Shown: in pieces, positions 5,829-20,600 of the stretch
How positions within the stretch are numbered: position 1 is the first letter of the stretch
Layout: each line of letters begins with the position of its first letter
Source of the DNA: Chromera velia
Lineage: Eukaryota; Sar; Chromeraceae
NCBI GenBank assembly: GCA_018398765.1
Contig: JAHBMJ010002088.1
Coordinates: 1-22,672, forward strand
DNA length: 22,672 nucleotides
Direction: 5' to 3'
Notes under the pieces: generated by a model
What the model was told of the DNA's origin: nothing
What the model saw: the letters and a program-made list of their open reading frames with translations, nothing else
Databases searched by the model: none
Translations under genes and position numbers: made by a program

Positions 5829-6563
5829 AAACATGCAGTCAAAAGCGAGCTAAAAGAGAGGGAAGAGCTGAGAGAAGGCGTCATGCATCCTATCCATGCG
5901 TCTCTATCTAACGGAAATCGCCTAAACCTATGGCTGCACAATAGGAAGAATGGAGAAGATACAGACAGAAGCATTTCATTAGATAGAAATAAGATAGGGA
6001 GAACTCCCATCTGCTATACAAAGATAGCTCCCTGGCCTGTCCACAGAAGAAGGGCTGCATTTTGGGTGGAAGAGAGAAACTTAAAGGTAAACAGGGGGAA
6101 GTTCTCAATAAAAGGAGACAGAGGGACCCCATTGACAGAAAGGAAATGCATGGTTTGCTTTGACCTGCTTGATATTCAAGCAGTCGAAAATGAAATCCAT
6201 ATGCTGACTGAATGCCCTCTGCATGATGGAGAGAGAGCAGACTGCTTGTAAGCTTTGATGACACGTTGGAGTTCGGTGAAAAGGAGAGAGGAGAGAGCTG
6301 CAAATAGCAGCAGATGGAAAGTGGGTAGTGAAGGGAAGGTAGACAAGATCACTCTATTCTCTTTTCTTTTGAATGAGGCCGATAAGAATGTTGATACCTT
6401 TCTGAAAGACGTCATGATGAAAAGACAGGTAGTGAGAGAATGGAAAAGAAAAAAGGGAGACAATTTGAGTCAAGCTTTACGAAGAGAGTTAGATAGATTG
6501 CATCAGGAGACTTGGAAAAGTGAGAAAGAAAGAGAGGGAAGAATTAAAGAGTATGAAAGAGTG
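5829..6563 (+). pseudogene. Reverse-transcriptase C-terminal fragment (non-LTR type)
   Basis: One reading frame is open from 5829 to 6563 except for a single TAA at 6249-6251. Before the stop it has the zinc-knuckle-like tail common in LINE polyproteins: an R-K-C-x2-C pair (around RKCMVC), then E-N-E-I-H-M-L and E-C-P-L, giving C-x2-C-...-H-x4-C. After the stop the same frame continues with a LL-x5-V-x2-FLKDV segment and charged helices, as in LINE C-termini. The upstream limit is a stop at 5826-5828, and no catalytic residues are present. The in-frame stop and missing 5' part indicate a dead copy. A separate functional gene is unlikely. Confidence 0.65.
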
Positions 6564-6869
6564 TAGAGCGATATAAAGGAAGCAAAAGAGGAGGGAAAAA
6601 GGAGGAGGATGGGATGTTGGGAGGTTTTGGAACTCGCTTCGAGCCGTTCATCTGCAATTCTGGGATCGTTCCCTTTCCAACCCTGCTTTGGAATGGAGTG
6701 AGCCCTCTCGCATACACACGCAGGTGATTGACTGTTCAATGTGATCCGTTCGCGACACAGGCTAGACCTGTGCGGGCCGGCTAGGGAGGTCTGATGTGTC
6801 TAGGCGCTTTCTCTGGAAGCCGCACATCGGATATTCGGCATTGGGGCGGGAGGCCAATCCTCTGGACAT

Positions 6870-7507: not shown

Positions 7508-8180
7508 TGGCAAAAAGTAGCCAGCGCTCGACAACTGAATTCAGCATCCGTGTGTGGTAAGGAGGAACCAGCGCTTGACAACTGAATTCAGCATCAGTGC
7601 GCGGCAAGGAGGAACCAACGCTCGACAACTAAATTCAGCGTCAGTGCGCGGCAAAGAGGAACCAACGCTCGACAACTGAATTTACCGTCAGTGCGCGGCA
7701 AGGAGGAACCAGCGCTCGACAACTGAATTCAGCGTCAGTGCACGGCAAGGAGGAACCAGCGCTTGACAACTGAATTCAGCATCAGTGTGCGGTAAGGAGG
7801 AACCAGCGCTCGACAACTGAATTCAACACCAGACTGAGTGCGCGGCAAGGAGGAACCAACGCTCGACAACTGAATTCAACGTCAGTGTACGGTAAGGAGG
7901 AACCAGTGCTTGACAACTGAATTCAGGATCAGTGCGTGGCAAGGAGGAACCAGCGCTCGACAACTGAATTCAGCATCAGTGCACGGCAAGGAGGAACCAG
8001 CGCTCGACAACTGAATTCAGCGTCAGTGCACGGCAATGACTCAGAGTTACCAGGGCTCGACAACTGAATTCAGCGTCAGTGCGCGGCAAGGAGGAACAAG
8101 CGCTCGACAATTGAATTCAACGTCAGTGCGCGGTAAGGAAAAATAAGCGCTCGACAACTGAACTCAGCATCAGTGCGCAA
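7508..8180. repeat. 47-bp minisatellite, 14 units
   Basis: The anchor C(T)CGACAACTGAATTCAG recurs at 7527, 7574, 7621, 7668, 7715, 7762, 7809, 7862, 7909, 7956, 8003, 8056, 8103 and 8150. Eleven of the steps are exactly 47 bp. The two 53-bp steps (into 7862 and 8056) each carry a 6-bp insertion. Every standard unit has the palindrome CTGAATTCAG and a purine block GGCAAGGAGGAACCA. 47 is not a multiple of three, and all minus-strand frames stay partly open, so the frames here are not evidence for a gene. Confidence 0.95.
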
Positions 8181-11744: not shown

Positions 11745-12205
11745 CAGATAAACGAAAAGAGATGGAGGCAGACGGATGGAGGTAAAGAGGTGAGAACAGA
11801 TGAATAAACGAAAAGAGATAGAAGAAGAATGATGGAGGTAAAGAGATGAGGGCAGATAGATAAACGAAAAGAGATGGGGGCACTCTCTGAGACGGATGGA
11901 GGTAAAGAGATGAGAGAAGATGGATGAACGAAAAGAGATGGAGGCAGACGGATGGAGAAAAAGAGATGGATGCAGATGGATGGAGGTAAAGAGGTGAGGG
12001 CAGATGGATGAACGAAAAGAGATGTGGGCAGACGGATGGAGGAAAAGAGATGGGGGCACTGCCAGACAGATGGAGGCAAAGAGGTGGGGGCAGACGGATG
12101 GAAGAAAAGAGATCAGGGCAGACGGATGGAGAAAAAGAGATGAGGGCAGATGGATGAACGAAAAGAGATGGGGGCAGACGGATGGAGGCAAAGAGATGAG
12201 ATGCA
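11745..12205. repeat. 28-bp purine-rich minisatellite, about 16 units
   Basis: Unit of the type GAGATGGGGGCAGACGGATG plus GAGGAAAA, 28 bp long, with two 6-7-bp insertions after GGGGCACT. Pyrimidines are rare on the plus strand. 28 is not a multiple of three and the minus strand has almost no stops, so three overlapping minus frames (up to 211 codons, Leu/His/Pro/Ser rich) run through it. I treat them as artefacts of the repeat. Confidence 0.9.
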
Positions 12206-12362: not shown

Positions 12363-13163
12363 TCATATCCGCTCTTTTATGAGGCCTTTGGCAATACGGA
12401 AGGCTTGACGTTTCAGGCTGTCCGCCTTCCGCGCCCGAGAAATGTACTTGTGGACCCTGCAATAAAACTTCCCGTCCTTATCCGGATTTGGAACAGCAAC
12501 ATCCGGGCAAGAAAATAGATATCCGTAAACATACTCACACTTGGGAGCCTTTGTTGACCCAGATAGTGTGAGTTCACGGCAGGCCCGGCGTTCCAGGTTC
12601 TTCAGCTTCTGTGCCTGAGGAATGTACTTATGGTACTTGCAGTAGAATTTTCCGTCTCCCGCAGGTCTTGCCAAAGCAGCTGTCTGGCAGGGCGCCCACT
12701 CTCCATGTGAGAACGGGTACTCACAACGTCGAGCTTCGAATGCCTCAGGTCGCCTCTTCTTCAGGTGGAGTCCAACATGGGGTGCATCTGGGAGACCAAG
12801 AGAGCCCAAGACTTCTGAACGGCGTTTCAAATTAGTCTCCTTTCGGGCTTGTGGAATATACTTATGCTTCCGACAGTAGAACCCTCCGTCTGCAGTAGGT
12901 TTGGGAACAGCTGGAACTTTACAAGAAGACCTGCCATATGCGAAAGGGAATTGGCAAGCCAGAGGGGATGAGCACGCTACCCTTGGCTTTTGGTACTTAT
13001 GGCTTCTGCAATAAAACTTTCCGTCGGCTGCAGCAGGTTCCACTATTCTTTCCTCACACTTCGTTTGTTGGTGAGCATAAACGAATGCACAAGGCACTTC
13101 GTTCTGCAACATTGCACTCGATTCTAAATTCAATTTCAAATTGTATGATATCCTGCTACGCAT
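12363..13163 (-). CDS. Four-repeat C3H (putative zinc-binding) protein, 266 aa
   Basis: An intact single-exon frame made almost wholly of four copies of one module: C-x(9-11)-C-x15-C-x2-H-K-Y. Ligand sets by residue: C25, C36, C52, H55; C70, C81, C97, H100; C147, C159, C175, H178; C209, C219, C235, H238. Each module also keeps an aromatic pair after the first Cys (such as EYPF), a Pro before D-G-(K/G)-F-Y-C, and A-(R/Q)-K after HKY. Linkers are basic (KKRRP near 135; KRR/ERR after modules 2-4), which would fit nuclear or nucleic-acid binding. Regular Cys/His spacing implies metal binding by inference. The last half resembles EsV-1-7 repeats (C-x4-C-x16-C-x2-H) and the C3H domains of KANSL2/INO80D, but the first spacing differs, so no family is assigned. 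There is no signal peptide. Met18 is an alternative start and leaves all modules intact. Confidence 0.8.
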   Translation of the reverse strand: MRSRISYNLKLNLESSAMLQNEVPCAFVYAHQQTKCEERIVEPAAADGKFYCRSHKYQKPRVACSSPLACQFPFAYGRSSCKVPAVPKPTADGGFYCRKHKYIPQARKETNLKRRSEVLGSLGLPDAPHVGLHLKKRRPEAFEARRCEYPFSHGEWAPCQTAALARPAGDGKFYCKYHKYIPQAQKLKNLERRACRELTLSGSTKAPKCEYVYGYLFSCPDVAVPNPDKDGKFYCRVHKYISRARKADSLKRQAFRIAKGLIKERI

Positions 13164-13455
13164 AGAAGTGCCACTGAACTTGAATAAGTCAGAGGTGAAT
13201 TTATCGATAACTTGAAAGTGGTGTTGGATGACTGATCTGTTTGGTCCGTCTCATGCCGTCTCCATCAGACTGACCGCGCGCAGTTAGCCATGAAGGGTAT
13301 TGAAGAGCCCATGCACGCGCATGCATTCTAAGCTAGAAGAAAAGCTTGAAAATCGGGTTAAAATTTTCTGTCAAGGTAGCGGGCCGCGTGAAATTCGAGG
13401 CAGGGGGTCATGCAGGCTCACCTTACCTTAATTTATTTTACCTTTCGGTTTGGGC
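13164..13455. promoter_or_regulatory. Upstream region of the C3H-repeat gene
   Basis: This lies immediately 5' of the minus-strand start. No clear TATA box or initiator stands out, and no coding potential is seen. It ends at the MITE-like element beginning at 13,456, which therefore sits about 290 bp upstream of the gene. Confidence 0.3.
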
Positions 13456-13695
13456 TACAGATACCGTGGCTCGGGGGCCACGGCATATATAGGATCGAGG
13501 GATTATGCATTGTAATGTCCCTACGGGACATGCCGTGGCCCCCAGGGGTGAGATAGGGTGAGAGCACTGAGAGGTGTACCCATGATTGTAATACATGCAT
13601 GCAACAGGTTCCCCTTCCCATATTAATATATGGTGCATGACAAAACCCTCAATCACGGTTGTTAGCTGCGCAAAGGCGTAGTCGCGGTATCTGTA
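13456..13695. mobile_element. MITE-like element with terminal inverted repeats and TA ends
   Basis: TACAGATACCGTGGCT (13,456-13,471) pairs with AGTCGCGGTATCTGTA (13,680-13,695) at 14 of 16 positions. If TA is the target duplication, the ends are CAGATACCG...CGGTATCTG, in the style of Tc1/mariner-derived MITEs. It is 240 bp long with no coding frame, and contains a nested hairpin (13,473-13,543). A related CAGATACC-plus-GGGGGCCACGGC string at 16,471 suggests a family. Confidence 0.5.
13473..13543. repeat. Nested dyads: GGGGGCCACGGCAT...ATGCCGTGGCCCCC with inner hairpin
   Basis: The 14-bp arms at 13,473-13,486 and 13,530-13,543 are perfect inverted repeats. Next to the right arm is a second stem, ATGTCCC-TAC-GGGACAT (13,515-13,531). 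The two foldings share bases 13,530-13,531 and so compete slightly. Confidence 0.8.
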
Positions 13696-17610: not shown

Positions 17611-20600
17611 GTACGTCCGTGTCCGGTTTCAAATTTTGCAGTGAAACGCCACTGAAAATGCTCGCATGCTCACCACTTCGACAGGGCATTATCTAGCCAG
17701 GTCCTTTCCAAAATCTTTTGCTCCTTTCATTTTTCCTGCAAAACGAGGCCGAAAGGTAAAGGCAAGTGTATCGTTTATACTGTATACAAGCGTCTGATCA
17801 GAAACCTGCTCTGCGTACTAGTGAAACCGGAGTGGTGGGAATCAATAAAAAGATGTTCTGCATTTTCCTTCACCTTTGAAAACAGTGAAGAAGTATCTCA
17901 TCTATCTGTCATTCCACATTCACGAGCTGATCATGTATTCTTTCTTCAGGATGCGATTTGAGTGGCCCTGGATTCTGTGTCTGCCGCGAGGGGTCATGCC
18001 AGGGCATCTCTGCGGACACGCGCGGGATTCCTCAACCCTGCTGGACTCAGATTCCCTTCGCAGACCCCGTCGTCCCCGACCCCGGAATCTCTTTTTCGGC
18101 AGGCGACTTCAGGTTTCAGATTTCGGGCAACGGGAGGAAGTTTATCTCATACCCCGCCTCAGTAGTTGCTCCTCAGCCGGATACCCCCCTTGGACCACAG
18201 ACCTTCACAATGGTGATTGAGGGGCCCCCGGCAGGTTCCGGGGAGCCGCCTTCACCGGTGTACGGAGGCTTCTACCTGGACGCCAATGTGGGGGACACCA
18301 CAGGAGACGATGCAGAGGTCCTCGGATCTCCGTCTCCCGGACAGTCCTTTGAGACCGGGTCCTTCAACGACGCTGACCCGACCGTCACGGACATCGACAG
18401 GACCCTCGCCAACCTGCGTCGAGAGAGCCTGAGCAGCACGAACAAAGTCAGGACAGAGTTTGGGGGGGCGACCGACGCCGTTTTTGCCCTGAGTCATCAG
18501 GTGGAAGTTCCGGCCGGTCAAACGGCGATCCTCCTTTTCTCCACCTACGCTTCCAGCGACGGTCCCCCAACAAAGCTCGAAGGAAGCACCCTCGTGCTGA
18601 AGCAATCTGACCCCGCCGGCGCCGTCAGTCAAGACTTCTACTTCACCAGCAGCGCGTGCCTCGTCGACACGAGTCTGGTGGCTTTTGCTGTCTCTTCGGA
18701 CGCCTGTGGAAACCAGCCGATTGGCATCCCGTGTGCTGCAGATCCGGCGTTGGAGACGTGCATGGGGACTTTTTGCGTTTTCGATTTTTGCGTGCCGCTC
18801 CCAGGGGAGTTCTTCGGTGAAGACTTTCCCTGGATCTATGCCGGCAATTCGTGCGGCCCCGACGGCGAGTGCTCGAGGCAATTGTGTGATCCAGAGGGGC
18901 AGTGCAATTCAGAACCGTTTCCCATCAACAGCGGCCAGCCTTGCACGGGGGGGTTTTGTCTGGCGGGCGTGTGCGCAGAAGCAACCGAGTGCATCGGGGA
19001 GGCTGACGGTACTGTCTGCACAGACGATGGAGATGACTGCACGGATGACATCTGTGCTCTGGGCCAGTGCACGCATCCACTTATCGACAGCCCGGATTGC
19101 AACGGTACGTATTGCAATCTCTTAGTTTCTGTACGTTGTTGTGGCAGATCTAGACGCTGGCTGGGTATATGATGCAGGGCATTCATTCATTGATTGGTGA
19201 GGTCGACCTGGGAGATTCCGATCTAAGTAAATTTGTTTTCATCCAAGGGGCCGGACCTCGCTTGATCTCATCTCAGCTCTTCTCACATGATGCAGAGCCT
19301 ACAGATTTCACGAATGCATGCTCTGTGTGCCTCATGCTCGTCCATGTCTTTGGTGTTGGTTTTTGTGCCGTGGTGCTTTGCGTCCGTGCATTGTCATGTG
19401 GCTGTGTGTGCGTTTTGCCAGTGTCGTTGGCCGTATGTGTCCGCCTTCTTTTGCCTGGGTGTGTGGCATTTCCCTGTACCTACCTTTCTGATGAACGTGG
19501 TGATGTGGGGTGCTTTGCAGCTCTGAACCGTTTCCGCGCGGTCTGCACTGGCAGAGTGAGTCAGGCGGATGCCGCATCAATATGCGAGAGCAGCGGGCGG
19601 CGTCTTGCGCGGATTCAGTCGGACGCTGACAATGGCAGAGCCGTCGCATCGCTCGCTGCCCTGACGAGTTGCCGAGGGAGTTCAGCGGGAGCGTGGATCG
19701 CGGGAACGGACGCGGCGAGTGAGGGACAGTTTGTCTTTCCGTCCGCAGACCCCCTTTTCTACTTCAACTGGAGAGAGGGAGAGCCGAGCAACGCCAGGGA
19801 TGATGAGGACTGCATTGCGATTGCCATGGACCCTCTCTTGGGAGGGATGTGGAATGACCAGACATGCGATCGAACGCCGTACTCGGCCGCCATCTGTGAG
19901 AGTCCAGGACGTCAGTGGTTCTTTCTTGCCGGCTTAATTGTCGTTCCACGCATCCTCGAGCTCAACCGTACTTTTCTTTCTGTGTCTCTTGCGGCATGCA
20001 GGACTCAGCCCAGCTTGCTTGTACACTGAATGACTGACGCACGCACGAATGCATCAAAAGTCCTTTCGAAGTCTTAGCCTGGATCGAGAAAGGACCTCGG
20101 GCTTACTTTCCTTTCCTCTCCTCTCCCTTTCTGTCAATTTTCCTCTCATTCTTCCGCGTTTGTCTCGATCGGCGCATTGTTTGCAGCCCCAAGCCGCTTC
20201 ACCGCGCTTTGCACTGGCGGAGCCAATCAGGCAGACGCAGCGCTTGTCTGCGAGAACAACAGTCTGCGTCTTGCGCGCATTCGGACAGCGGGAGACAATG
20301 CGAGGGCTGCAGCTTCGCTCGCATTTCAGGCGGACTGCCCGGGAGGATCCTCCGGCGCGTGGATCGGAGGGAGCGATGAGGTGAGTGAGGGCAGCTTCGT
20401 CTTCGCGAATGGAGAGCCGCTGTCGTACTTCAACTGGAAAGCTGGAGAGCCGAACAACGACGGTGGCAACGACAGTGGAAATGAGAACTGCATCGGCTTG
20501 TTGTCGGGAGGAGAGTGGAACGACCTCAGCTGTTCCGACACCCTGTCTACCTCCGTCTTATGCGAGGATCCCGCAGGTGAGACGGCACTCACTCACACAC

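Follow-up and report, generated by a model that had tools for sequence, protein, structure and literature searches.

What might a small, basic protein do that consists of four copies of one Cys/His module and passes the cut-off of no named family? The protein is encoded at 12363-13163, on the reverse strand, of a stretch of 22,672 nucleotides from the alga Chromera velia (assembly GCA_018398765.1, contig JAHBMJ010002088.1, positions 1 to 22,672), and this whole stretch is referred to here as the window. Most likely, the protein is a distant variant of the C-x9-C-x10-C-x2-H finger kind, with a loop between the second and third cysteines (Cys2 and Cys3) that is five residues longer. With moderate confidence, we read its four modules of three cysteines and one histidine (C3H), together with the basic linkers, as serving zinc-dependent binding of nucleic acid, probably DNA.

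Four C3H modules in one basic protein

The frame of this gene is open for 295 codons; when the 1-kb region was shuffled 500 times by single nucleotides, the longest frame had 184. The product is basic, with 51 Lys and Arg against 23 Asp and Glu and an isoelectric point of 9.73. An earlier note on this DNA had described four C-x(9-11)-C-x15-C-x2-H-K-Y modules with a D-G-(K/G)-F-Y-C core, and that description is accurate. The proposed ligands lie at C25-C36-C52-H55, C70-C81-C97-H100, C147-C159-C175-H178 and C209-C219-C235-H238, giving spacings of 10-15-2, 10-15-2, 11-15-2 and 9-15-2. All 16 of them are kept, and both H-K-Y and the D-G-(K/G)-F-Y-C core are present in every module. Two further cysteines (64 and 195) lie outside the modules.

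The repetition exceeds chance, and the small all-repeat protein of unusual spacing that the earlier note saw is real. When a hidden Markov model (HMM) built from three modules searches for the fourth, each module is recovered with the E values given in Table 1, scaled to 7,732 sequences. The pattern C-x(9-11)-C-x15-C-x2-H occurs at these four places in the six frames of the whole window and at no others. Among 200,000 shuffles of the protein, the motif followed by K-Y appeared once in three and twice or more in none. The variation that had been placed between Cys1 and Cys2 is confined to that interval as far as spacing within the modules is concerned; in residues, the linkers and the Cys2-Cys3 loop are variable too. 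Summed over the six module pairs (25 codons), the proportion of synonymous differences (pS) is 0.76 and that of non-synonymous differences (pN) 0.35, and over 11 core codons the values are 0.95 and 0.13, a contrast biased by the picking of these codons for conservation. Divergence among the internal copies is therefore concentrated at synonymous sites, which does not amount to evidence of present-day selection.

The basic linkers of the earlier note are also borne out. The stretches that follow the His of each module carry Lys plus Arg against Asp plus Glu at 3/0, 12/5, 8/2 and 10/2, which amounts to 33 against 9 and leaves a net positive charge in all four. The linker between modules 2 and 3 contains LKKRRPE, which we take to be a possible nuclear localisation signal. 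A disulfide-rich secreted protein was considered and set aside by inference, given three cysteines and one histidine per module and a basic N terminus.

The nearest known kind of finger

Family libraries give the protein no name, as had been anticipated: nothing passes the cut-off in Pfam, with the whole protein or with single modules, or in NCBIfam (best 0.73). At E up to 10, where the filters of the search drop most matches above about 0.1, Pfam lists five families for the whole protein. The best is Zn_ribbon_RRN7 (PF11781), with E 0.001, 19.1 bits against a cut-off of 27.1 and a best stretch of nine residues; it was set aside because these residues belong to one core only. DUF5763 (PF19067) comes second (E 0.0032, 17.3 bits against 26.3), followed by TIG_2 (0.45), DUF2990 (0.5) and zf-CW (0.94). 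Scanned singly, the modules give one match only, that of module 1 to DUF5763 (E 0.031, 14.2 bits). The best PHROGs match has E 0.021 over 16 residues, PADLOC gives no match, and the PDB yields nothing by phmmer at E up to 10 and one match at 0.71, not significant, by profile search.

The earlier note had named EsV-1-7 and KANSL2-type domains as near but not equal. The zf-C3Hc3H domain (PF13891) of KANSL2-type proteins has a C3H ligand set and is alike in this respect. EsV-1-7 (PF19114) is also C3H, with the spacing C-x4-C-x16-C-x2-H, and its algal context is alike, but x4 and x16 stand against x9-11 and x15 here. It is a further likeness that EsV-1-7 is a repeated motif, as described in PMC7457493. 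The inequality holds, as neither profile is among the Pfam matches at E up to 10 for the protein or its single modules. The assembly as searched comprises 177.8 Mb in 4,040 contigs, and match counts in it are lower bounds; PF19114 has seven matches there and PF13891 four, all under the cut-off, and a motif scan of these 11 loci in all frames found no module of the window type.

Neither of these two, however, is the nearest known kind, which is instead the finger with the spacing CX9CX10CX2H that plant WRC and HRT proteins carry. PMC7380329 presents the WRC domain as DNA-binding and as an atypical C3H finger of this spacing that also occurs in HRT of barley. The modules agree with WRC (PF08879, of plant GRF factors) and with the barley HRT finger in the C3H ligands, in Cys1-x9-Cys2 (9-11 here) and in Cys3-x2-His; the Cys2-Cys3 interval, however, is 10 there and 15 in 4/4 modules here. 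WRC is absent from the Pfam matches listed for the protein at E up to 10, where no QLQ or other domain was found either, and its six matches in the genome include none over the cut-off. Comparable too are the ET repeats of plant EFFECTOR OF TRANSCRIPTION, which PMC6585611 describes as Cys/His repeats of variable number that bind zinc and DNA. ET proteins carry a GIY-YIG nuclease domain, whereas the 266-residue protein has no such Pfam match.

DUF5763 offers a third comparison, and proteins with this domain occur in the same genome, where their modules read C-x9/10-C-x10-C-x2-H; matches of these proteins to WRC and zf-C3Hc3H are weak. The Cys3-x2-His half is similar, the Cys1-Cys2 spacing and an aromatic residue before Cys3 agree with those of the window modules, and the Cys2-Cys3 loop of DUF5763 is shorter. 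We aligned the four modules by hhalign with 11 DUF5763-like modules, three of them from this genome and eight from a group of 11 contigs. Of that group, L116 was left out for its odd frame and L119 and L122 as near-duplicates; of the genome, C1545 was left out because its Cys3-x2-His is incomplete. The alignment reaches E 6.4e-4 and a probability of 27.8 over only 22 columns, in the Cys3-His half. Its score was reached by 0/150 shuffles that kept the Cys and His columns and by 1/150 full column shuffles.

Whether this likeness reflects descent is the point on which the evidence divides. Common descent with the C-x9-C-x10-C-x2-H kind is suggested by the profile likeness and the spacing and is plausible, but unproven. 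It is also a serious, if lesser-than-even, possibility that the modules are a convergent new C3H class, unrelated to WRC, HRT and DUF5763, in which Cys3-x2-His and the aromatic residue would reflect the chemistry of small zinc sites. Such convergence would fit the lack of any family profile over the cut-off, the Cys2-Cys3 loop of 15 rather than 10, and the restriction of the profile match to one half of the module; it sits poorly with the failure of all Cys/His-fixed shuffles to reach the hhalign score and with the agreement of the Cys1-Cys2 spacing as well. An HMM of the DUF5763-like modules, run over 7,732 open reading frames (ORFs), gives 0.048 for a second copy of the gene (on contig C403) and 0.19 for the window protein, with no single significant stretch, and the reverse search with the window HMM, which also speaks for convergence, is weak (DUF5763-like L120 at 0.092, L028 at 0.2, C1894 at 7.7). 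This weak reverse search slightly lowers our confidence in our preferred reading and slightly raises it in convergence and in a decaying gene, which is weighed below. Convergence concerns descent, and it is compatible with the function that we propose.

Several proteins that carry DUF5763-like modules were observed alongside. On C1894 (L102, 674-1588, reverse strand), a protein with two DUF5763 modules of the spacing C-x9/10-C-x10-C-x2-H (protein E 5.5e-16) matches SNase weakly and under the cut-off (E 0.0021), and likewise weakly WRC at 0.056 and zf-C3Hc3H at 0.53; its module part has no match in phages. On C1545 (L105, 1423-2493, forward strand), one frame holds a DUF5763-like match (E 0.00019) and a von Willebrand A match (E 0.0052), both under the cut-off. 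Two IMG/VR contigs, L118 (12520-13437, forward strand) and L121 (61-813, reverse strand), each encode a protein that combines a C3H module similar to DUF5763 (under the cut-off at E 0.066 and 0.0023) with a T5orf172/MUG113 domain, for which T5orf172 is over the cut-off at E 2.9e-5 and 1.5e-8. T5orf172/MUG113 is kin to GIY-YIG, to which L118 has a weak match too. This pairing of C3H and a GIY-YIG-type domain is that of plant ET proteins, which, like plant GRF proteins, have been called plant-specific (PMC6585611 for ET). Taken with the window protein and the DUF5763 proteins of the genome, these viral-contig proteins of the C3H/GIY-YIG type suggest a broader and older kind of which the ET/WRC finger of plants may be a part.

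A proposed mode of action

We propose that each module folds round one zinc ion, with Cys1, Cys2, Cys3 and His as ligands. In a structural model of module 4, C-terminal helix included, which is fairly confident (predicted local distance difference test, pLDDT, 80.7), a helix begins directly on the C-terminal side of Cys3 and carries the His. The His would thus sit on a short helix starting after Cys3, with a longer basic helix behind it, as modelled for module 4 and presumed for the others. The invariant F-Y and K-Y may form a hydrophobic core or a contact surface. The basic linkers would lie along nucleic acid, and the four modules and linkers would grip it together, most likely DNA, in the nucleus, as WRC and ET repeats of plants are described to do. 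No catalytic domain was recognised by Pfam in the protein, and because of this its role would be that of a binding or recruiting factor, in transcription or chromatin. From the composition of the protein and from the functions of WRC and ET, we infer zinc binding, DNA binding, nuclear location and a regulatory role alike. The metal-dependent nucleic-acid binder of the earlier note is in this sense plausible, by composition and by the WRC/ET analogy.

The modules could instead use their bound zinc to mediate protein-protein contacts rather than binding of nucleic acid, as an adaptor or scaffold in the manner of treble-clef, RING, AN1 and LIM domains. A Foldseek search of the PDB gave 20 matches that all fall short of significance (the best E is 1.9), among them RING, LIM, AN1 and Pygo PHD domains, five GATA chains and the DNA-binding domain of the glucocorticoid receptor. 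The presence of the first four is in keeping with a protein-contact role, and the invariant F-Y and K-Y could make a binding surface; the net positive charge of all four post-His stretches speaks against it, as does the closest spacing kind (WRC, ET), which is described as DNA-binding. We consider this role unlikely.

If DNA is bound through zinc, as we favour, the CX9CX10CX2H kind of plant GRF and ET proteins would gain another spacing, in an alga, and a candidate regulator would be added in a probable close relative of apicomplexans. A bolder version, which we hold to be rather doubtful, is that C-x9-11-C-x15-C-x2-H-K-Y with DGxFYC defines a new C3H class, restricted to chromerids or a narrow set of alveolates, in which the protein is a four-finger DNA-binding regulator with no plant, animal or viral counterpart.

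Copies in the genome and in viral contigs

The suggestion of a lineage-specific family finds no echo in the assembly, which as searched contains a single intact gene and no expansion; the only other copy is truncated and chimeric. A protein search of the assembly gave one other strong match, C403:36015-36707(-), with 94% identity over residues 24-254. The peptide pattern FYC-x2-HKY occurs without mismatch at eight sites, four in the window gene and four in C403; with up to two mismatches there are 291 matches against 323 in a reversed control, which is background, and only the best of these became loci. The window and C403 have the DNA between about 11748 and 13063 of the window in common, so that the C403 copy begins inside module 1, without its Cys1. 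Near the C terminus, the two differ in length by 4 bp. Just upstream of the C403 copy (locus L002) lies a dispersed repeat, roughly 365 bases long, that contains the in-frame ATG of the copy; with 40 of 448 candidates scored, this repeat has at least 45 matches including itself.

Such surroundings raise the question whether the gene, as one of a pair that lies in repeat-rich DNA, is decaying or without function and under no present selection. The truncation of the C403 copy in module 1, its start codon in a dispersed repeat and the 4-bp difference would fit decay. So would the 217 shared codons, with three synonymous and five non-synonymous differences (8/651 bases), which are too few to judge constraint. 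The window copy, however, lacks none of its proposed ligands, its first module is complete, and its modules diverged mainly at synonymous sites, so that we regard decay as very unlikely.

Outside these two copies, C1199 (E 0.03) and C963 (E 0.55) hold no module of the window type. Looser patterns were seen at two of the loci taken from the matches with up to two mismatches: at L028 (on C1925), C-x12-C-x14-C-x2-H in a 52-residue frame (E 0.2 with the window HMM), and at L034 (on C18), C-x10-C-x13-C-x2-H in a 57-residue frame that is not in the HMM list.

Viral origin was considered and rejected: a peptide pattern matched five stretches of viral contigs, none of which was confirmed. At the DNA level, a pattern that encodes C-x15-C-x2-H-K-Y preceded at Cys3 by FY matched 20 viral contigs, and the matched frame holds a stop in 16; the four open ones (L071, L072, L074 and L080) have frames of 28-74 residues with one motif each, which no Cys precedes at a distance of 9-11 residues. 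Among the 7,732 ORFs, the window HMM scored L072 (IMG/VR, 74-residue frame, no second module) at E 0.00016 and L080 at E 0.022, values that are biased because both contigs were fetched for that very motif, and the two matches are taken as chance. The tandem spacing of EsV-1-7 was tried as well and matched 10 viral contigs, of which eight hold a stop and two have low-complexity-looking frames. Phages gave no match by tblastn, and pattern scans of prokaryotic genomes gave 22 and 10 matches, of which none was confirmed.

Table 1. Coordinates in the window of the gene, its parts and the adjacent repeats.
Feature	Position	Strand	Description
Four-module protein ORF	12363..13163	-	ATG to stop, 266 aa
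Module 1	12999..13091	-	aa 25-55, C-x10-C-x15-C-x2-H; leave-one-out E 2.7e-11
Module 2	12864..12956	-	aa 70-100, C-x10-C-x15-C-x2-H; leave-one-out E 1.3e-21
Module 3	12630..12725	-	aa 147-178, C-x11-C-x15-C-x2-H; leave-one-out E 1.8e-18
Module 4	12450..12539	-	aa 209-238, C-x9-C-x15-C-x2-H; leave-one-out E 2.3e-16
Linker, modules 2-3	12726..12863	-	46 aa, basic, 12 K+R / 5 D+E; contains LKKRRPE
C-terminal tail	12366..12449	-	aa 239-266, basic, 10 K+R / 2 D+E; mostly helical in module-4 model, up to aa 262
28/56-bp tandem repeat array	11747..12200		downstream of gene, inside segment common to C403
Dispersed repeat	13385..13600		upstream of gene; many matches elsewhere in assembly (query 2386-2487, 2503-2601)

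For the Chromera velia assembly, PMC4501334 gives about 30 Mb of transposable elements. In the assembly searched here, the alveolin-type profile IMCp has 11 matches and the light-harvesting profile Chloroa_b-bind 58, and each of these searches also matches one bacterial control. Elsewhere in the window, two adjacent ORFs at 5883-6566 (forward strand) have a Cys/His pattern that, by impression, resembles the C terminus of a retroelement protein, with no Pfam match at E 0.01, and a tandem array of 13.7 copies of a 47-base unit occupies 7521-8178. An ORF at 19169-20029 (forward strand) has a C-type lectin domain (E 1.9e-9), and the ORFs that neighbour it, from about 16.7 to 22 kb, resemble in our impression exons of Cys-rich extracellular proteins.
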